DNA from: a virus
DNA length: 33,263 nucleotides
Strand: one strand, 5' to 3'
Virus record (IMG/VR): IMGVR_UViG_3300043331_000142
Span: 1-33,263 of that record
In this document: one piece after another, positions 966 to 17,742 of the stretch
How the letters are laid out: every line of letters starts with the position of its first letter
Position numbering within the stretch: the stretch's first letter is position 1
The notes under the pieces: model-generated
Told to the model about the DNA's origin: nothing
Database searches by the model: none
The model's input: the letters and a program-made list of their open reading frames with translations, nothing else
Position numbers and translations under genes: made by a program

Positions 966-1568
966 TTAACCAAACTTCTCCCCGTTAACTTCGATATCCA
1001 CAGGCTTACTGCCCTCGACAAGAACGATGCGTAATTCATTCTTACCCATCATGGCCTTTTCCATAAGTGATCTGGCGCCATGACCTCCTCTGTCAAGGAT
1101 GTCCCGACTCGCTCTTAGACTTACATTGTCATGCTTACTCTTCATAGCATGATGATACACCCGACTCAACGCATCATGCCCATACGCTGCAATACGCGCA
1201 CTAATCAAATTACTATTAACACTAATAAACTCTTGACTTATGTAATCGAAAGCCTCGCCGTATGCCGCGTGCTTCCTAATCGCTTTAACGTCATCAGTCG
1301 TGATTCCGACGGCTTCGGATATTTCACGATTTCCCACTCCGAGAAGAGTGTAGACCAATATGACTGCAATCGCCTTGAGCGTTTCAGGCGGCGCAGGCAT
1401 CTCCTTGAGCGTCCTCTTCGTAGCTGCTTTAAAGTTCTTGGCACTGAGTTCTCTCTCTGCTTCTCGCTCAACATCCTTTATCAGCCGACCGTTATCCATA
1501 ACATATGGATCACCCGGCTTAGGCAGCGCACGCATCTTACCATTTATAGGGGAACTGCTTCTTGGCAT
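966..1568 (-). CDS. probable terminase small subunit (200 aa)
   Basis: Residues 75-98 (GVGNREISEAVGITTDDVKAIR in outline) form a clear helix-turn-helix in an otherwise helical, charged protein, as in small terminase subunits that bind packaging sites. The length suits that family, and the location in the late block, ahead of genes that leave the window on the left, fits terminase. The start is uncertain: GTG 1580 and ATG 1568 are both in frame, and ATG is preferred. It overlaps the upstream 64-residue gene by 25 nt. An alternative is another late DNA-binding protein. The large subunit is not in the window, so this remains inference. Confidence 0.6.
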   Translation of the reverse strand: MPRSSSPINGKMRALPKPGDPYVMDNGRLIKDVEREAERELSAKNFKAATKRTLKEMPAPPETLKAIAVILVYTLLGVGNREISEAVGITTDDVKAIRKHAAYGEAFDYISQEFISVNSNLISARIAAYGHDALSRVYHHAMKSKHDNVSLRASRDILDRGGHGARSLMEKAMMGKNELRIVLVEGSKPVDIEVNGEKFG

Positions 1569-1738
1569 ACAATCACCCACTTATTCTTCGGTAACTTCAT
1601 TTTGTAGCCAAACGCCTTAGCGTCGCTCTCACAATCAATCTTGCTAAGCGACGCATTAGGCGGAAATAACGTACGATCTATGTAGCCACACTCATGCGGT
1701 TGCGCAGCTACACAGACCAACAAAAAGAACCAAGTCAT
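1544..1738 (-). CDS. small exported-type protein (64 aa)
   Basis: The first residues (MTWFFLLVCVAAQ) are a short hydrophobic segment like a truncated signal peptide. The rest is polar with four cysteines in total (residues 9, 17, 36 and 58), suggesting disulphides outside the cytoplasm. The start at ATG 1738 lies 2 nt after the repeated palindrome at 1741-1755, and no Shine-Dalgarno sequence fits in between. Its 3' end overlaps the small-terminase-like gene by 25 nt. No family was recognised. Expression of such a protein in a late operon could relate to the envelope or to lysis, but nothing in the sequence shows this. Confidence 0.6.
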   Translation of the reverse strand: MTWFFLLVCVAAQPHECGYIDRTLFPPNASLSKIDCESDAKAFGYKMKLPKNKWVIVCQEAVPL

Positions 1739-1740
1739 CC

Positions 1741-1755
1741 TGTGTGACTCACACA
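1741..1755. promoter_or_regulatory. palindrome copy (centre C)
   Basis: TGTGTGACTCACACA. It lies one base after the stop of the 125-residue gene and 2 nt before ATG 1738. Confidence 0.85.
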
Positions 1756-1756
1756 G

Positions 1757-2134
1757 CTACCTGGTTCCAAGCGGGTTTCCATCGCCATTCGCTACGGGAC
1801 TCGCCGTGTACGTGTTGGTCGAGAACGCGAGAATGTCGTGGTCGATGGCGGTTTCGTCAGCAGATGCAGTGTTCCGTCCGACAAGAGTTTCAGTCTCGAC
1901 GACCCTGACTCCACCAAGCTCCGAATTAGCTTCGATCCGCCCGAGAGTTTTTGATGCAGCTGAACCGGCCGCAGCGCCATTGAGAGTCTCCATCAATTCA
2001 CGAAGAGCATAAGTGCCCTTCTTGTTAAGCATCTTCGCAGCCTCACGGCGTGCAAAATTAATGCCACTAACCTGTGACAACGTAGCAGCATACTGGGCCC
2101 AAAAGCCACCCTTGACATCAGCAGTCGCACTCAT
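1757..2134 (-). CDS. late protein of unknown function (125 aa), first gene after the leftward promoter
   Basis: The start at ATG 2134 is chosen because TTGGAGG lies about 6 nt upstream; the in-frame ATG at 2146 has no such site. The protein is rich in Ala, Thr and Asn. Its first half looks helical (YAATLSQVSGINFARREAAK) and the second half beta-rich and polar, as in small virion proteins. It is the first gene downstream of the leftward promoter at 2242-2270, with a leader of roughly 100 nt. The stop codon is followed after one base by a copy of the repeated palindrome and then the next gene. No family was recognised. Confidence 0.7.
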   Translation of the reverse strand: MSATADVKGGFWAQYAATLSQVSGINFARREAAKMLNKKGTYALRELMETLNGAAAGSAASKTLGRIEANSELGGVRVVETETLVGRNTASADETAIDHDILAFSTNTYTASPVANGDGNPLGTR

Positions 2135-2241
2135 CGCATCCTCCAAATCGATGGACCGAGAGCCGCGGAAAGACGCGGGCGACGACTCGGCTCCCGGTCC
2201 TGCTTCGCCGATCGGTCGTCACGTCTCGGCCAGCTGCGTGA

Positions 2242-2270
2242 GTTGTAGCATTATTGTAGTCATGTGTCAA
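2242..2270 (-). promoter_or_regulatory. leftward sigma-70-type promoter for the late block
   Basis: On the minus strand TTGACA (2270-2265) is followed by a 17-base spacer and TACAAC (2247-2242), with TGC directly before the -10 (an extended -10). It reads toward the 125-residue late gene. A palindrome copy lies 34 bp upstream, and a divergent promoter begins at 2376. Confidence 0.6.
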
Positions 2271-2303
2271 GCGCGTTTTGTAGCGGTGATAGCAGCGTCG
2301 TGG

Positions 2304-2318
2304 TGTGTGAGTCACACA
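2304..2318. promoter_or_regulatory. palindrome copy (centre G)
   Basis: TGTGTGAGTCACACA between the divergent promoters at 2242-2270 and 2376-2404. Confidence 0.85.
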
Positions 2319-2375
2319 GGATTTTGAGCTATGTTGCAGTGCAGCATTGTTGGAATTTTAGGGTGTATTTTAAGC

Positions 2376-2404
2376 TTGACAAGCGTTTCTTTTTATGATA
2401 TCTT
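2376..2404 (+). promoter_or_regulatory. rightward sigma-70-type promoter
   Basis: TTGACA (2376-2381), a 17-base spacer and TATCTT (2399-2404). The -35 lies within the 11-bp palindrome GCTTGACAAGC, which also occurs at 8292. No gene follows for 1.5 kb, so the product may be a leader or noncoding transcript that reads into the terminator at 2702. Confidence 0.55.
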
Positions 2405-2446
2405 ACTAACCACACAGCAAGATGGTGCGCTGAGCGAGCGCATGTG

Positions 2447-2461
2447 CTCCCCGAAGGGGAG
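2447..2461. other. hairpin with GAA loop
   Basis: Stem CTCCCC/GGGGAG closing a GAA triloop. One of three GAA-loop hairpins in the control region. Confidence 0.6.
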
Positions 2462-2525
2462 GACAGGCGCGAGCGAACAGATATATACAGGCAACAACAT
2501 ATAGCTTTGCTATAATTGCGGCGAG

Positions 2526-2546
2526 CCTCGTCGCGAAGCGACGAGG
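2526..2546. other. 9-bp hairpin with GCGAAGC tip
   Basis: Stem CCTCGTCGC/GCGACGAGG closing GAA. The tip GCGAAGC is the sequence known as an exceptionally stable single-stranded DNA mini-hairpin. Confidence 0.65.
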
Positions 2547-2612
2547 TGAGGGGAAGCAGCGTAACGAACGAAAAATGCGTTTTCGCGGCCATATTTTGCC
2601 CAACAACTTTCC

Positions 2613-2627
2613 TGTGTGATTCACACA
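2613..2627. promoter_or_regulatory. palindrome copy (centre T)
   Basis: TGTGTGATTCACACA, adjoining the -35 of the small-RNA promoter. Confidence 0.85.
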
Positions 2628-2628
2628 C

Positions 2629-2657
2629 TTGACAAGTCCTCATCGCTATGCTAACAT
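2629..2657 (+). promoter_or_regulatory. promoter of a probable small RNA
   Basis: TTGACA (2629-2634), a 17-base spacer and TAACAT (2652-2657), with TGC before the -10. The -35 lies in the palindrome ACTTGACAAGT (2627-2637). A TGTGTGATTCACACA copy ends at 2627 and so touches the -35 region directly, where a bound regulator would affect initiation. Confidence 0.65.
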
Positions 2658-2663
2658 ACCTTT

Positions 2664-2730
2664 GTTCATGACTGTTCCATGAGCATTTCCTCCCTTCACT
2701 TGGCCCCGCATCCGGCGGGGCCTTTTTTCT
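2664..2730 (+). ncRNA. probable 67-nt phage small RNA
   Basis: The transcript is bounded by the promoter at 2629-2657 (start expected near 2664) and an intrinsic terminator at 2702-2728. It contains no credible reading frame. Its single-stranded middle carries TTTCCTCCCTTCAC, a sequence of anti-Shine-Dalgarno type. Bases 2690-2701 are perfectly complementary over 12 nt to 8450-8461, the ribosome binding site of the gene at 8469. An 8-nt part also matches the site before 10730. A role in repressing translation is an inference. Alternatively it could be a short attenuated leader. Confidence 0.55.
2702..2728 (+). terminator. intrinsic terminator
   Basis: Perfect 8-bp stem GGCCCCGC/GCGGGGCC with loop ATCCG followed by six T. 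It ends the small RNA and would stop transcripts from the promoter at 2376. Confidence 0.85.
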
Positions 2731-2744
2731 GTGTGAGTCACACA
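2730..2744. promoter_or_regulatory. palindrome copy (centre G)
   Basis: TGTGTGAGTCACACA, 2 nt after the T-run of the small-RNA terminator. Confidence 0.85.
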
Positions 2745-2800
2745 ACTTTCCGGCGGAATCTAAAACCTCTACACACTCCCACTCCCACCTAGTCCTCATT

Positions 2801-2813
2801 GCGCCGAAGGCGC
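2801..2813. other. hairpin with GAA loop
   Basis: Stem GCGCC/GGCGC closing GAA. It is followed by the alternating TATATA-CTG-TATATA inverted repeat at 2817-2831. Confidence 0.5.
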
Positions 2814-2877
2814 GGATATATACTGTATATATAGCACTTTCCGCAAACACCCTCTTCCTCAACACCCCACAACAGTT

Positions 2878-2907
2878 CGAGCCCCCAATCTTTCGACAGG
2901 GGGCTCG
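2878..2907. other. 9-bp inverted repeat in control region
   Basis: CGAGCCCCC and GGGGGCTCG separated by 12 bases. It has no T-run, so it is not an obvious terminator. Confidence 0.5.
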
Positions 2908-2951
2908 TAACCACATCCGGAAGTACTAGGCAGTATTACAAGTATAATAGC

Positions 2952-2966
2952 TGTGTGAGTCACACA
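2952..2966. promoter_or_regulatory. palindrome copy (centre G)
   Basis: TGTGTGAGTCACACA, just before the AT-rich inverted repeat. Confidence 0.85.
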
Positions 2967-2982
2967 AGTCAAGGGGGTAAAA

Positions 2983-3015
2983 TAAATAAATAATAAGTGT
3001 AGGAATATTTATTTA
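2983..3015. repeat. AT-rich inverted repeat (possible DNA-unwinding element)
   Basis: TAAATAAATA and TATTTATTTA form perfect 10-bp arms around 13 bases, inside about 50 bp of nearly pure A+T (2978-3026). It is the only such stretch in the window and lies about 75 bp from a DnaA box. Confidence 0.55.
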
Positions 3016-3088
3016 TAATAAGAAAACCAACAATGATGTACCTCGCATGGCTCGCCCCCCCACAAGTCAACAGGAGAATAATACCGTC

Positions 3089-3097
3089 TGTGGATAA
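3089..3097 (-). promoter_or_regulatory. DnaA-box sequence
   Basis: TTATCCACA on the minus strand, an exact match to the bacterial DnaA-box consensus, between the AT-rich stretch and the GACTAC repeats. Confidence 0.5.
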
Positions 3098-3335
3098 CGG
3101 GGGGACTACGGGGGGGAGTCAATGTAGTAGTCAATGTAGACAGTGTACATGACTACGCGCTGTAAGCACGCATAACACAACAGCGCAACTTGTTGGTTTC
3201 ACATGCGTTCCGGCGATAGGCCGGCGCCTCAATTCGTAGTATTGCTATCAGTGACTACAGAATGCTGGCGGCGAAACGAGGACAGTGATAGCGAATTGGT
3301 GACGTGATGAGGACGGCACATTAAGTAGCTATATC

Positions 3336-3350
3336 CGCGCCTGCGGCGCG
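3336..3350. other. hairpin CGCGCC/GGCGCG
   Basis: Six-base-pair stem with a TGC triloop in the control region. Confidence 0.45.
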
Positions 3351-3413
3351 TGGTTGACTACAGAATGGAGATAGAACGTGAATACGTTCGTGCCTGTGGC
3401 TGCGTCAAAAACT

Positions 3414-3428
3414 TGTGTGAGTCAAACA
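3414..3428. promoter_or_regulatory. palindrome copy, one mismatch
   Basis: TGTGTGAGTCAAACA, 12 bp before a DnaA-box sequence. Confidence 0.65.
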
Positions 3429-3439
3429 GAAAAATTGAG

Positions 3440-3448
3440 TTATCCACA
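3440..3448 (+). promoter_or_regulatory. second DnaA-box sequence
   Basis: TTATCCACA on the plus strand, exact consensus, 13 bp before the perfect palindrome CGGTTGCAACCG. Confidence 0.5.
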
Positions 3449-3480
3449 GAAATGTTTTTGCGGTTGCAACCGAAAGTTGC

Positions 3481-3508
3481 TTGACAGAAATCCGCAACCG
3501 TCTACGAT
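3481..3508 (+). promoter_or_regulatory. possible rightward early promoter
   Basis: TTGACA preceded by GC, as in the other phage promoters, then a 16-base spacer and TACGAT. The -10 is weak. It would give a leader of about 400 nt before the gene at 3927, containing the long inverted repeat. Confidence 0.35.
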
Positions 3509-3733
3509 CGGCGACGGTCTAAGTGCCCTAGTGGCCGGCTCAGGACCCAATACCAAGGTTTCGCTAATCCAGGCGGGCTCATTGACAACCGAATATGACC
3601 AAATTTCGCGGCGGATGCTATCCGTTCGCTGGCGGTAAGTGGCCGTTCACTAATCGGCCCTAGCGCATTCCAGGCTAACGCGCTGTTAGCAATGCGGCTT
3701 ACACTGGCAACGGACAATCCGAGGCGAAACAAC

Positions 3734-3900
3734 CTAATCGCTTTCACAGTGTAGCGCGACGGTGCTACGCTGTACCTTTCGCTTTTCCGCTATGCATTCG
3801 AGCATTTGCTAGCGATGAGCGGATGATAGCGCAAACAGGACAGCGCAACGGTTCATGGCTGGCCAGCATGATTTACGCGCTACACCGTGAAAGCGATTAG
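3734..3900 (+). other. 24-bp inverted repeat enclosing a structured leader
   Basis: Bases 3734-3757 and 3877-3900 are complementary at 23 of 24 positions and enclose 119 bases. These contain smaller stems, including CGCTA/TAGCG around 3790-3815 and the palindrome GCTGGCCAGC. The right arm ends 26 nt before the start codon at 3927, with the ribosome binding site in between. It could be a structured regulatory leader, a noncoding RNA domain or a DNA cruciform. It matches no riboswitch class that I recognise. Confidence 0.6.
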
Positions 3901-3926
3901 AAAACCCAGCGAAAGGAAAGATAGCT

Positions 3927-4160
3927 ATGGTTCGCAAGGCAAACCAGACTGCTGATACTCGTTCGTTTTCGTTGAAGGTTAGCGAAAAAGGCGCCGTAAG
4001 CTTGTATGGCTTGCGTCGCTTTCCCGTTACCTTTTACGCGGATGAGTGGCGCGCGGTGCTAGGTAAATCCGACGCAATCCTTCGTTTCATCGAAGCTAAT
4101 CGCTCGAAATTGAGCGATAAGCAGGAAAGCGGGGGCGTTGTTGGCGGTACTCGGATTTAG
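3927..4160 (+). CDS. small conserved-type phage protein (77 aa)
   Basis: The start ATG follows GGAAAG at good spacing. Residues 12-58 (SFSLKVSEKGAVSLYGLRRFPVTFYADEW in outline) form an alternating beta pattern ending in a helix. This 'KGAVSVYGLGRFPVTLY' pattern is, to my knowledge, found in short uncharacterised proteins of proteobacterial phages and prophages. As the first rightward gene after the control region, and with a long structured leader, it is probably expressed early. Its stop is followed by two tandem hairpins. The biochemical function is unknown. Confidence 0.8.
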   Translation: MVRKANQTADTRSFSLKVSEKGAVSLYGLRRFPVTFYADEWRAVLGKSDAILRFIEANRSKLSDKQESGGVVGGTRI

Positions 4161-4173
4161 GTGTTGCACTGAT

Positions 4174-4216
4174 TAGGCTAGCGCAAATGCTAGCCTAGTT
4201 CGGGCAACATTGCCCG
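4174..4216 (+). other. two tandem hairpins between early genes
   Basis: TAGGCTAGC/GCTAGCCTA (4174-4197) and CGGGCAA/TTGCCCG (4201-4216) lie back to back. There is no T-run. Possible attenuator, processing site or Rho-related terminator. Confidence 0.5.
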
Positions 4217-4242
4217 TATCCCAGCGATGGAAAGGAAATACA

Positions 4243-4503
4243 ATGCGAACGATCCTGTTAGCTCTGGCGATGCTGCTTGCGTTCTCTCCGGTTGGATTTG
4301 CCCAAGAGGCATCGCAAGGCGCGACAGACTACCGCACGGCCGTCAAGGCGTGCGGTGCGGAGTGGCGCAAGCGTGACGATTATGAGACCAGGAAGGGTCG
4401 CGACGCTTGGAACGAATTCCGCGCCGACTGTGTGGTGCGGCAAGGGTACGTAAGCAAGAAGGATCAGGCGAAAGCGGCCAAGGAGGCGAAGAAGTCGCAG
4501 TAA
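4243..4503 (+). CDS. small secreted protein (86 aa)
   Basis: The start ATG 4243 follows AAAGGA. Residues 1-21 (MRTILLALAMLLAFSPVGFA) are a textbook signal peptide with a likely cleavage after FAQ or FA. The mature part is basic, with two cysteines (in KACGAEW and RADCVV) that could form one disulphide, and ends in a Lys/Ala-rich tail. The pattern 'AWNEFRADCV' resembles small periplasmic proteins common in rhizobial genomes. In an early phage region such a protein might alter the host envelope or block superinfection, but this is only a guess from location and export signal. Confidence 0.8.
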   Translation: MRTILLALAMLLAFSPVGFAQEASQGATDYRTAVKACGAEWRKRDDYETRKGRDAWNEFRADCVVRQGYVSKKDQAKAAKEAKKSQ

Positions 4504-4595: not shown

Positions 4596-4631
4596 GACAT
4601 AGGGTTGATAGGGGACGGACATAGGGTTGAT
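4596..4631 (+). repeat. direct repeat of GACATAGGGTTGAT
   Basis: Two copies start at 4596 and 4618. The longer form CATAGGGTTGATAGGGG (4598-4614) recurs exactly at 5809-5825 inside a gene and with one change at 9183-9199 before a start codon. Confidence 0.6.
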
Positions 4632-7251: not shown

Positions 7252-7500
7252 ATGAAAGTGCTGAACCCCGGATTCTACAGGATGAAGGGAGGAAGTGGTG
7301 CTGTTCCATTCAAGAAGGTGGAGCGGGCGTTGGATGATAGACTGCTTCAGATAAAAATGAGTAATGGGAACTGGTGGACGCTGAGGCGGAATGGGAAGAC
7401 GCAGAGATGGAAGACCGATCCGAATAGGATAAGGATTCCATACAAGTACGGATTCTATGAGTATGGGGCGATAGAAACTGAGGACTTTGTGGATGTGTGA
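7252..7500 (+). CDS. small basic hypothetical protein (82 aa)
   Basis: The start ATG 7252 is one base after the previous stop and follows GGAGAG. The protein is basic and rich in Trp, Arg and Tyr (WWTLRRNGKTQRWKTDPNRIRIPYKYGFYEYG in outline), reminiscent of small beta-barrel or nucleic-acid-binding folds, although nothing more specific is visible. Its stop codon TGA lies inside the palindrome copy 7494-7508, and a terminator hairpin follows. It is the last gene of the unit. Confidence 0.65.
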   Translation: MKVLNPGFYRMKGGSGAVPFKKVERALDDRLLQIKMSNGNWWTLRRNGKTQRWKTDPNRIRIPYKYGFYEYGAIETEDFVDV

Positions 7501-8445: not shown

Positions 8446-8468
8446 CAAAAAGTGAAGGGAGACAGACT

Positions 8469-10702: not shown

Positions 10703-10721
10703 GATGACACTAAGCGAAGGG

Positions 10722-10834
10722 AGACTGACGTGAGCGACTGCCCGACCTGTAGAGGCACCAACCGAGTTTGGAACAACCTGCTTGAAGAATGGCGAGGATG
10801 TCCAGATTGTGAGGGGAAGACTGACGTGAGCGAC
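10722..10834 (+). repeat. 17-nt direct repeat carrying a translation start
   Basis: AGACTGACGTGAGCGAC occurs at 10722-10738 and 10818-10834, each preceded by a GGGA-type purine stretch. The GTG in both copies is in the same frame, 96 bases apart. Confidence 0.7.
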
Positions 10835-14704: not shown

Positions 14705-15241
14705 ATGGTTAGGTATGTGCTGCTAAATGGTCCGCCTCACTGCGGCAAGACAACAATAGCGAGAGAGTTATGCATAGCGATTAAGGAAAAAGGGAAGTTC
14801 GCTATACAGGACTCGCTGGCTGCACCACTGAAGCACTTCATAGCAACGGCGTTGGGAATTAAGTATGGAGAGACGAATAAGGATCGGGCTATGCCAGAGT
14901 TGAATGGTGTCAGCATTCGACAGTTTATCATAGCGTTGGCTGAGGAACATTTGAGGGATAGATATGGACGAGATTTGTTCGCTCGATGGCTCGTGTACCG
15001 CTCACTACGTTTTCCTGATCGTAAGCCTGACTTCGTTATCGTTGATGATTTGGGTTTTGTTGAGGAAGTAGAAGCAATGCCAAATCATTTCATTGTAAGA
15101 GTGGTAAGGCCAGGGACTTCGTTCGCTATGGATAGCAGATCATACATACGTAGGCCGAATTTTCTATTCGACAATGATTGTTCGTGGATAGATATGGTCG
15201 GCCAAGTCGGTGCGTTGGCTGCAACGTTAGTGGAGGAATAA
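14705..15241 (+). CDS. deoxynucleoside monophosphate kinase-like protein (178 aa)
   Basis: The P-loop GPPHCGKTT is at residues 9-17, followed by a layout (DSLAAPLKHF, then RQFIIALAEEHLRDRYGRDLFARWL, then FVIVDDLGFVEEVE) typical of the phage dNMP kinase family related to T4 gene 1. It would phosphorylate dNMPs to supply dNTPs for phage synthesis. The start at ATG 14705 lies after the helicase stop. Its stop shares one base with the polymerase start (TAATG), so the genes are coupled. Confidence 0.8.
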   Translation: MVRYVLLNGPPHCGKTTIARELCIAIKEKGKFAIQDSLAAPLKHFIATALGIKYGETNKDRAMPELNGVSIRQFIIALAEEHLRDRYGRDLFARWLVYRSLRFPDRKPDFVIVDDLGFVEEVEAMPNHFIVRVVRPGTSFAMDSRSYIRRPNFLFDNDCSWIDMVGQVGALAATLVEE

Positions 15242-17742
15242 TGTTGGTCAAGAGAGATATAACACGCGACGAACTGAGATTTCAGTTTGAGTCACACGCG
15301 AGTGACATGGGCTTGGAAGTGGAGGTATTCAGTGATGGACCAGTTAATGCAGGAGTCGCGATCGTCGGAGAAGGACCTGGAGAGACTGAGATACGGCAAG
15401 GGCTTCCTTTTGTTGGGGGTGCTGGTCGTCTCTTGTGGGATAGCCTCCGGAAGTATGGCCTGCATCGTGGGAATGTATATGTTACTAATGTTGTTAAGCG
15501 GCAGATAAGTCTGTCTAGGAAAGGGAACGAGAAACATGCAGTCCACAGAGACGAGCAGGAGAAATGGGCTGGACTTCTTCAATGGGAACTTAGTCAACTG
15601 CCAAATGTGCGGGCAGTCTTTTGCATGGGCAACTTTGCTCTGGAAGCTCTCACGAACCACGTCGGAGTCACGTCCTGGCGAGGTTCTGTGTTGGATTATC
15701 AACTGCCCAATGGTCAAGCTGGAAAAGTTGTGTGTACAATTAATCCAGCATACGCTCAAAGAGAACTCAAGTTCGAGCCAGTATTCCTTATGGACTGCCG
15801 CAAACTCGACTTGGCTGTCCGCGGAGCTTTCAAGCATCATTATATTGAGGAAATTATCAACCCCACATATAAGGAAGCTATGGCGTTCATCCGGGACATT
15901 GCAAAAGCTGACAGACCTTTTTCGTTTGACATAGAGCAAATCAATGGAGAGACTGCGTGTTGGGGTATTTCGAATAACCCGCATAGGGCGATGTGCATTA
16001 ACTTGCGTGATGCCGAGTCCAATAGGTTCACGGTGTCCGAAGAAACTGACCTTTTATTGGCTATGCAAAGCTTGTGTGACTCACACAAGGTTATTGCACA
16101 GAACGGTTCGTTCGATGCCTACTGGTCAAGGCTCAAGGACTGGCTATCCGTTCGAGTATGGTTTGATATACTACTTGCACATCACGCGCTGTATCCACAA
16201 CTACCGCATAACTTGGCGTTTCTAACTGCGCAGTACACGACTCACCCATTCTACAAAGACGAGGGAAAGGCATGGAAAGAGGGCGGAGACCTAGATCGAT
16301 ATTGGAAATACAACTGCAAGGATGCAGCTATTACGTATGCGGTGTACGAAAAATTGTCGAAAGAATTAAAGCAGGAGGGACTGGAAGACTTCTACTTCGG
16401 CCATGTCATGCGGGCACAACCCCATCTGGTCAGCGCGACTGTGCACGGTGTCGCTGTAGATTTGAGTATGAAAACACGGCTTACCGAGCTTATCACGGAA
16501 GATGTGGCGAAGCTGGAGTCAAATTTCCACAGAATTGTTACGGAATTGACGGAGGAGAGTGACTATCGGCCAAATCCACTATCGCCAGATCAGTTGAAAG
16601 CGTTGTTCTTTGATAAGCTTGGACTGAAAGGGAGGGGGTACAGTACAGACGAAGACAATCGAAACCTTATGCTCAAAGACCCTGCGACTTCACCCCTAGC
16701 CAAGGAGATGCTCGTTGCTTTGCAAAGGTACAAAGAAGAGGCTAAGTTTCTTGGAACATATGCACAGTCAAGAGTATCTAGCGATGGGAGGTATCGGTGC
16801 GAGTACAAGCAGTATGGTGTGGCTAACGCACCTGGAAGGCTGTCCTCTGCCAAACTGCTTACTGGTGAGGGGGGCAATATGCAAAACATTCCAGTGCGAG
16901 CGAGAGGAATGTATGTCGCGGACCCAGGTTGTGTATTTGTCTACTTTGACTTGAGTCAGGCTGAGGCTCAAGTAGTATCGTTCAGAGCAGACATAGCCAA
17001 GTGGAGAGAACAGTATGCGCAAGCTAAAAGAGATGGGGTATACGATAGCCACCGAGCCTTGGCTTCAGAGATGTTTAAGGTACCCTATGATAACGTTCCG
17101 ACAGAAGATTGGGATGCGGACGGTAAGCCTACGATACGTTATACGGCCAAACGGTGCCGTCATGGCCTCAATTACAGAATGGAGCGCTTCAGACTATCAC
17201 AAGTTACGGGGCTACCATATCACGTCGCCTCACGGGCGTTCGCGCTCTATCACTCTATTACACCAGAGCTACGGCGTTGGTGGGAGCAGGAAGAAGCTGA
17301 GTTCAAGAAAACCCGCACGATGTATAATGCCCTTGGACGGAGGTTTAAGGTTGTCCAGAGACTTGACGAAGCGGTTCTCGGTTCCATCATTGCATTCTAT
17401 CCGCAATCTACAATCGGAGATAAAATTACTCAGGTATGGTATCAGTGCGAGGAAGATGATGAATGGCCCGATGATGCTCGCATTGCGATCGATGTACATG
17501 ACAACCTTGTGGGTATTGCAACAGAACGAACGGCGAAAACGGCTCTGAAGATTATGAAAAAATATGCTGAGAGCCCAATATGGATACAAGATGCTTGGAG
17601 GAGAAGGAAGCATGAGCCTCTGAGCATCCCGGCTGAGTTGAAAATGAGCTATCCTACAGTATGGGATGAAAGTAAAAGAGACTTCGTGGAGGATAAGAAA
17701 GGTCTGCATAGATGGAGCACAATGAGAAAGGTAAAGCTATGA
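15241..17742 (+). CDS. UDG-like/3'-5' exonuclease/family A DNA polymerase fusion (833 aa)
   Basis: ATG 15241 follows GGAGG. Residues about 28-190 resemble family 4 uracil-DNA glycosylase (GEGPGETE at 42-49, GLPFVGGAGRLL, NVVK, and a final NPAYAQR near 168, where His is usual). Residues about 215-380 are a DnaQ-like exonuclease with Asp230/Glu232, Asp292 and Tyr357/Asp361. The rest is a Pol I-type polymerase: motif A with Asp570 (FDLSQAEAQVV), motif B R633-x3-K637-x7-Y645, and motif C HDN at 753-755. His641 stands where Pol I has Phe762, and Asn755 replaces the usual Glu. One palindrome copy is translated in frame as CDSHK. This is the phage replicative polymerase. Confidence 0.9.
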   Translation: MLVKRDITRDELRFQFESHASDMGLEVEVFSDGPVNAGVAIVGEGPGETEIRQGLPFVGGAGRLLWDSLRKYGLHRGNVYVTNVVKRQISLSRKGNEKHAVHRDEQEKWAGLLQWELSQLPNVRAVFCMGNFALEALTNHVGVTSWRGSVLDYQLPNGQAGKVVCTINPAYAQRELKFEPVFLMDCRKLDLAVRGAFKHHYIEEIINPTYKEAMAFIRDIAKADRPFSFDIEQINGETACWGISNNPHRAMCINLRDAESNRFTVSEETDLLLAMQSLCDSHKVIAQNGSFDAYWSRLKDWLSVRVWFDILLAHHALYPQLPHNLAFLTAQYTTHPFYKDEGKAWKEGGDLDRYWKYNCKDAAITYAVYEKLSKELKQEGLEDFYFGHVMRAQPHLVSATVHGVAVDLSMKTRLTELITEDVAKLESNFHRIVTELTEESDYRPNPLSPDQLKALFFDKLGLKGRGYSTDEDNRNLMLKDPATSPLAKEMLVALQRYKEEAKFLGTYAQSRVSSDGRYRCEYKQYGVANAPGRLSSAKLLTGEGGNMQNIPVRARGMYVADPGCVFVYFDLSQAEAQVVSFRADIAKWREQYAQAKRDGVYDSHRALASEMFKVPYDNVPTEDWDADGKPTIRYTAKRCRHGLNYRMERFRLSQVTGLPYHVASRAFALYHSITPELRRWWEQEEAEFKKTRTMYNALGRRFKVVQRLDEAVLGSIIAFYPQSTIGDKITQVWYQCEEDDEWPDDARIAIDVHDNLVGIATERTAKTALKIMKKYAESPIWIQDAWRRRKHEPLSIPAELKMSYPTVWDESKRDFVEDKKGLHRWSTMRKVKL
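16073..16087. promoter_or_regulatory. palindrome copy (centre C), intragenic
   Basis: TGTGTGACTCACACA inside the polymerase gene, read as CDSHK, just before the second exonuclease motif. Confidence 0.8.

Follow-up and report, generated by a model that had tools for sequence, protein, structure and literature searches.

The window analysed here, the whole 33,263-nt virus record IMGVR_UViG_3300043331_000142 (positions 1-33,263), carries what its sequence indicates is an alphaR8 (MmgR/suhB/SisA)-type small RNA, which is phage-encoded and probably acts in trans by blocking host ribosome-binding sites. Direct sequence evidence consisted of a promoter, a terminated transcript, a hairpin followed by a UUUCCUCCCU-bearing linker and a terminator, a match to the family model, and syntenic anti-Shine-Dalgarno (anti-SD) units in related phages (Table 1). 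Host mRNAs were judged likelier targets than the phage gene at 8469, a reading that was absent from the original prediction.

Architecture and family assignment of the small RNA

A short transcript bounded by an extended -10 promoter and an intrinsic terminator had been predicted at this site, and both signals were confirmed in the sequence. Its description as a small RNA with an anti-SD stretch was likewise upheld, by a comparable syntenic unit in relatives and by the match to a known anti-SD sRNA family. Folding of the RNA at 2664-2730 gave two hairpins with an unpaired linker between them, at -27.3 kcal/mol and z = -5.0, which none of 200 shuffles equalled. The window contained a single copy of UUUCCUCCCU, unpaired after the 7-bp hairpin.

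Table 1. Positions of the small RNA, its candidate pairing sites, neighbouring elements and similar RNAs in named phages (window coordinates unless an accession is given)
Feature	Position	Strand	Basis or remark
Upstream promoter TTGACA-17-TATCTT, extended -10	2376-2404	+	Same order in G006, G008, L117, L118
Palindrome TGTGTGATTCACACA	2613-2627		Ends one base before -35 of sRNA promoter
sRNA promoter TTGACA, 17-nt spacer ending TGC, TAACAT (extended -10)	2629-2657	+	Sequence
AlphaR8/MmgR-like small RNA	2664-2728	+	Start inferred from promoter, end from terminator
5′ hairpin, 7 bp, 7-nt loop	2664-2684	+	Folding
Linker AUUUCCUCCCUUCACUU, single-stranded, anti-SD, 17 nt	2685-2701	+	Folding
UUUCCUCCCU, identical to alphaR8 10-mer core given in PMC12559287	2686-2695	+	Exact match
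Intrinsic terminator, 8-bp GC stem 2702-2722, then TTTTTT	2702-2728	+	Folding, sequence
Palindrome TGTGTGAGTCACACA	2730-2744		Starts just after sRNA terminator
Hairpin element, core CGCCGAAGGCRCGGA	2802-2816	+	Pairs poorly
DnaA-box-like site	3097	-	
Hairpin element, core CGCCGAAGGCRCGGA	3334-3348	-	Pairs well
DnaA-box-like site	3440	+	
12-nt exact complement of 2687-2698	7283-7294	+	Within gene 7252-7500
12-nt exact complement of 2690-2701	8450-8461	+	Over SD of gene 8469
Gene 8469, candidate phage target	8469-8885	+	GTG start, 138 aa, kept in relatives
8-nt common complement GAAGGGAG	10716-10723	+	Before gene 10730
AlphaR8-like sRNA	OP596613.1 16066-16146		Named phage, not annotated as RNA
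AlphaR8-like sRNA	PP395640.1 42319-42402		Named phage, not annotated as RNA
AlphaR8-like sRNA	OM681334.1 26411-26491		Named phage, not annotated as RNA
AlphaR8-like sRNA	KY940711.1 99723-99823		Named phage, not annotated as RNA
AlphaR8-like sRNA	OP596612.1 28671-28769	-	Named phage, not annotated as RNA

When both strands of the whole window were compared with 4,227 Rfam families with E-values, the only match at E ≤ 1 was to RF00519 (suhB/MmgR, alphaR8), at 2667-2737 and over the full length of the model (1-77). The score was 40.4 bits (E = 3.8e-5 for the whole window, 1.6e-7 when a 141-nt stretch was searched), 0.6 bit below the cut-off of 41, and the scan of the window at curated cut-offs returned no family. 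Among 14 control genomes, RF00519 exceeded its cut-off only in Caulobacter.

PMC12559287 characterizes the alphaR8 hallmark as a 10-nt single-stranded UUUCCUCCCU located 3′ of a weak hairpin, accompanied by a Rho-independent terminator. This arrangement of hairpin, open UUUCCUCCCU and terminator with U tail is common to the window RNA, MmgR of Sinorhizobium meliloti and SisA-D of Caulobacter crescentus. Because the full-length RF00519 match is joined by the exact 10-mer in this hairpin/linker/terminator setting, the window RNA is classed here as alphaR8-like. Unlike MmgR and SisA-D, it is phage-encoded, lies between structural and early genes, and has its own strong sigma-70-type promoter. Its neighbours are phage genes, whereas an FGase gene is the neighbour in most alphaR8 species as reported in PMC12559287; that neighbour is not required, since SisB-D lie elsewhere according to the same source.

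Resemblance to other RNA groups was less complete. SorX (RF02784) matched the window RNA partially, over the hairpin, CU-rich linker and terminator, with 30.9 bits against a cut-off of 46.6, and RF02784 was not reported in the whole-window scan at E ≤ 1. The rhizobial RNAs SmelA075 and SmelA099 share with it an anti-SD loop motif and variable stems, but their core CCUCCUCCC is placed by PMC3927594 in three or four hairpin loops, whereas the window RNA has one UUUCCUCCCU in its linker. Small phage RNAs that act on host or phage RNAs include lambda OOP and PreS, VP882 VpdS, P1/P7 c4 and AgvB; c4 pairs around a ribosome-binding site and AgvB imitates targets of a host sRNA, and PMC12197685 presents none of the five as the phage counterpart of an anti-SD sRNA family found in hosts.

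Similar RNAs in collinear and other phages

Relatives were recruited with the helicase and with the 1757 gene as queries. The helicase query gave 43 loci, from phages collinear with the window and with the same gene order; their longest contigs were mostly 44-52 kb. The window record is probably a fragment. Single-query searches with the 8469 protein or the small terminase recovered no close relatives, and two scans of genome contigs for relatives of the phage family that could link it to a host found none. The main hint toward an alphaproteobacterial host is the alphaR8 match itself. The window also encodes, at 15178-17742 (+), a family A DNA polymerase that has a uracil-DNA glycosylase domain at its N terminus.

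When the window and relative loci were scanned for promoter-to-terminator units measuring 40-115 nt, eight distinct units emerged, five of which contained an anti-SD stretch (window, L113, G006, G008 and L117; the L118 RNA is the same as that of L117). All five had the 1757-gene homologue on one side and the early genes on the other, and this shared syntenic place makes chance a very poor account of the RNA unit itself. Ten more loci were scanned and added one unit, without an anti-SD stretch. An equivalent sRNA promoter preceded the units of G006, G008, L113, L117 and L118, and the upstream promoter came before the sRNA promoter in the window, G006, G008, L117 and L118.

Alignment of the syntenic RNAs revealed TTnCnTCCC in common, as well as an ACT ahead of the terminator. 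The CU stretch was in a hairpin loop in G006 and G008 versus the linker in the window, and no 5′ hairpin was predicted for the L117 RNA. Matches to the family model were rare in relatives, a low background that favors the alphaR8 assignment of the window RNA: RF00519 was matched at E ≤ 0.1 in 1 of the 43 helicase-relative records (E = 0.038) and, among 19 further relatives, only in L113 (E = 0.005, 16.1 bits). The weakness of the L113 match, the lack of any RF00519 match for the G008 RNA and the missing L117 hairpin count against that reading. The syntenic RNAs of the relatives may be alphaR8 RNAs that have diverged, or may have arisen independently. In the small-terminase tree, the five unit-bearing relatives formed a supported clade (99/95), the window stood apart at an uncertain position, and two changes of the label were required; the 1757 tree did not join L113 with the other unit-bearing relatives. 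The stretch examined of L184, the nearest to the window by the 1757 gene, had no such unit.

Direct nucleotide comparison found little. Megablast of window positions 1500-4500 against phage records gave no match, and an 18-nt exact sRNA pattern was absent from the viral contigs. Blastn of the sRNA against the records of the 43 relatives gave five weak matches; the one examined, in L049, falls in coding sequence.

Two further features were noted in the relatives. The syntenic L113 RNA (about 3402-3490, minus strand) has two anti-SD stretches, the second being AUCAUCCUCCUUU, which resembles the 3′ end of 16S rRNA. A different, leftward promoter-terminator unit of 79-98 nt was observed near the same genes in L125 (8868, +) and L144 (3366, +), with a long hairpin and a stretch containing GGAGG; it is possibly a second small RNA.

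Beyond the collinear phages, the pattern UUUCCUCCCU + ACTT + GGNC was found in viral contigs at no fewer than 80 loci (at least 119 stretches). The presence of the 10-mer is uninformative there because the loci were selected for it by construction. Among the 80 listed loci, 78 matched RF00519 at E ≤ 0.1 (49/49 and 29/31 in two batches), with 47 above the cut-off and 33 below; the weakest of these matches are probably chance. The 5′ hairpin, which was not selected for, was present in 73/80, a terminator-like end in 51/80, both in 46/80 and an E. coli-type promoter in 3/80. Of the 47 loci above the cut-off, 27 were >5 kb from both record ends. Twenty proteins encoded close to the RNA, taken from 11 loci among the 80 listed, were compared with PHROGs; at least one phage family was found at 11/11 loci and a large terminase at 5/11. 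In a MAFFT alignment of 17 alphaR8-like RNAs (window, 15 loci and one named phage), the stems were unaligned and RNAalifold gave 2 pairs.

A search of named phages with the phage alphaR8 from locus L255 as query identified five with such an RNA (Table 1), three of them above the RF00519 cut-off: Bradyrhizobium phages ppBeUSDA76-1 (62.8 bits), BDU-MI-1 (37) and ppBdUSDA122-1 (32), and 'Microcystis' phages Mwe-JY08 (62.8) and vB_MweS-yong2 (47). With the window RNA itself as query, four weak matches were obtained, one in BDU-MI-1. In ppBeUSDA76-1 and ppBdUSDA122-1 the RNA precedes the genes for an HNH endonuclease and the large terminase, and in vB_MweS-yong2 it is near the integrase; the Mwe-JY08 copy overlaps a gene annotated as hypothetical on the opposite strand. 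No record feature at the RNA sites of these five phages names an RNA. A literature search found no report of phage-borne alphaR8/suhB/MmgR RNAs, with subscription papers thinly covered and the spelling of the family name varying.

Pairing with gene 8469 and competing explanations

The original prediction had emphasized a perfect 12-nt pairing with the leader of gene 8469, part of it shared with a site near 10717. The pairing is indeed an exact reverse complement that covers the SD of 8469, and GAAGGGAG recurs before the 10730 gene. A match of at least 12 nt arose in 0.5% of 20,000 linker shuffles against 46 hand-listed translation-initiation regions, and in 0.5-1.2% when the CU core was kept in the shuffles. 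By duplex energy with the sRNA, 8469 ranked first of 77 plus-strand SD-starts (-21.0 versus -18.3 kcal/mol for the next), and its ribosome-binding site was predicted to be fairly open. These values favor a model in which the main action of the RNA is to mask the SD of 8469, the first gene of the replication run, and so repress this gene of the phage itself. Against it, the match is not unique, because gene 7252 contains another exact 12-nt match; when genes were called automatically, without the GTG start of 8469, the linker matched 8 nt at best (P = 0.49). The relatives also argued against it: the 8469 orthologue ranked 44/96 SD-starts in G006 and 25/76 in G008 by duplex energy with their own RNAs, and the G006 leader had no matching stretch. 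Control of 8469 as the main role of the RNA was thus not borne out and is unlikely. The proposed check of conservation in both partners gave a divided answer, in that the anti-SD unit is syntenic in relatives but the 8469 pairing is not conserved in G006 and G008. No common target gene of the RNAs from the window, G006 and G008 stood out. Because of these low orthologue ranks and the absence of a common target, the pairing may be possible in the window phage, yet would not be what keeps the RNA. For the 8469 protein itself, a Pfam search returned no family and the predicted structure was a fair model (pLDDT 78.5, pTM 0.54), for which structure comparison at E ≤ 0.001 returned one uncharacterised viral match and no PDB entry.

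Palindromes flank the unit on both sides, the one before the -35 belonging to a phage-wide set. The palindrome TGTGTGANTCACACA of this set occurred at 24 sites between window positions 1741 and 33044 (18 of them exact and 6 differing at one base, against an expectation of 0.04), in what looks like an operator or stoperator-like network. The sites are often directly before SDs or at operon ends, and relatives carry TGTATGA, TGTTTGA or AGTTTGA versions. A palindrome abutting the sRNA promoter, as originally described, was present in the window but not generally: none abuts it in L113, G006, G008 or L117. By this comparison, the putative operator beside the promoter belongs to the window and is not conserved. 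In the early region, GACATAGGGTTGATAGG was also observed in four near-identical copies, at 4596, 4618, 5807 and 9181.

Downstream, 23 sequences (the window plus 22 loci, some being overlapping copies of one record) carried a hairpin with core CGCCGAAGGCRCGGA twice, in inverted orientation and separated by 458-621 bp. The hairpin core is conserved and its complementary arms are lineage-specific (for example, in L061, L081, L105, L113, L117, L119, L122 and L145). On folding, the arms paired (at least 6 pairs) in 30/32 distinct copies versus 41% with arms dealt among copies; this superseded a stem count, blind to bulges, in which 11/32 copies had at least 8 pairs against 0.3 by dealt arms. Together with a cumulative GC-skew minimum near 3000 and two DnaA-box-like sites, the hairpin pair suggests that the region beside the sRNA unit is likely a replication origin.

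In the window, G006, L113 and L117 the unit adjoins this hairpin pair, and it could be a local element that insulates or tunes the neighbouring region by termination, in the manner of an OOP-like RNA beside an origin, without a role in trans. The GC-skew minimum fits such an element, but the anti-SD stretch common to this place and the full-length RF00519 match would be left unexplained, and we regard it as quite unlikely. It is less probable again that the RNA is a decoy, titrating an antagonist of host alphaR8 (a CrfA-like sponge) or occupying Hfq with no direct action on mRNAs: CrfA pairs with the alphaR8 10-mer (PMC12559287) and the window RNA has the same 10-mer, but CrfA-like sponges are not known alongside alphaR8 in the host of this phage. 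Hardly credible is an antisense artefact in which the CU stretch would simply be a leftward gene's SD seen from the opposite strand. A 195-aa minus-strand ORF (2329-2916) does cross the site, but it had no relative in the loci compared (best match outside the window, E = 4.0), and the peptides encoded from minus-strand starts directly following the antisense SD are 3-17 aa long. A cis antisense RNA of the OOP/sar type was also considered and rejected, the strand opposite the sRNA carrying no supported gene.

Proposed role in the host

The trans-acting alphaR8-type reading draws on the known activity of the family. Caulobacter SisA, with the same 10-mer, represses many mRNAs through it (8 of 10 tested fusions responded), including those of TonB-dependent receptors, and its pairing with CrfA is aided by Hfq, as reported in PMC12559287; MmgR limits polyhydroxybutyrate granules in S. 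meliloti (PMC7143759). The window RNA would be made in infected or lysogenic cells and held by host Hfq via its U tail. Its UUUCCUCCCUUCACUU would then pair with the ribosome-binding sites of host mRNAs that are under host alphaR8 control and block their translation, and the linker bearing UUUCCUCCCUUCACUU may also cover the SD of phage gene 8469. TonB-dependent receptors also act as receptors for phages. The outcome would be uptake or an outer membrane rewired in favor of the phage, and the benefit might be receptor loss with superinfection exclusion, or a metabolic change.

More speculatively, and with considerable doubt, phages of alphaproteobacteria might widely carry alphaR8 RNAs, as a viral branch of a core sRNA family of their hosts, and switch off TonB-dependent receptors and other uptake genes via the host anti-SD regulon in infection or lysogeny, so excluding superinfection or redirecting metabolism. 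According to PMC12559287, Rickettsiales are the only Alphaproteobacteria that lack alphaR8 RNAs, and the spread of the family is partly ascribed to lateral transfer. If phages carry functional alphaR8 copies, they would offer a route for the lateral transfer of the family.
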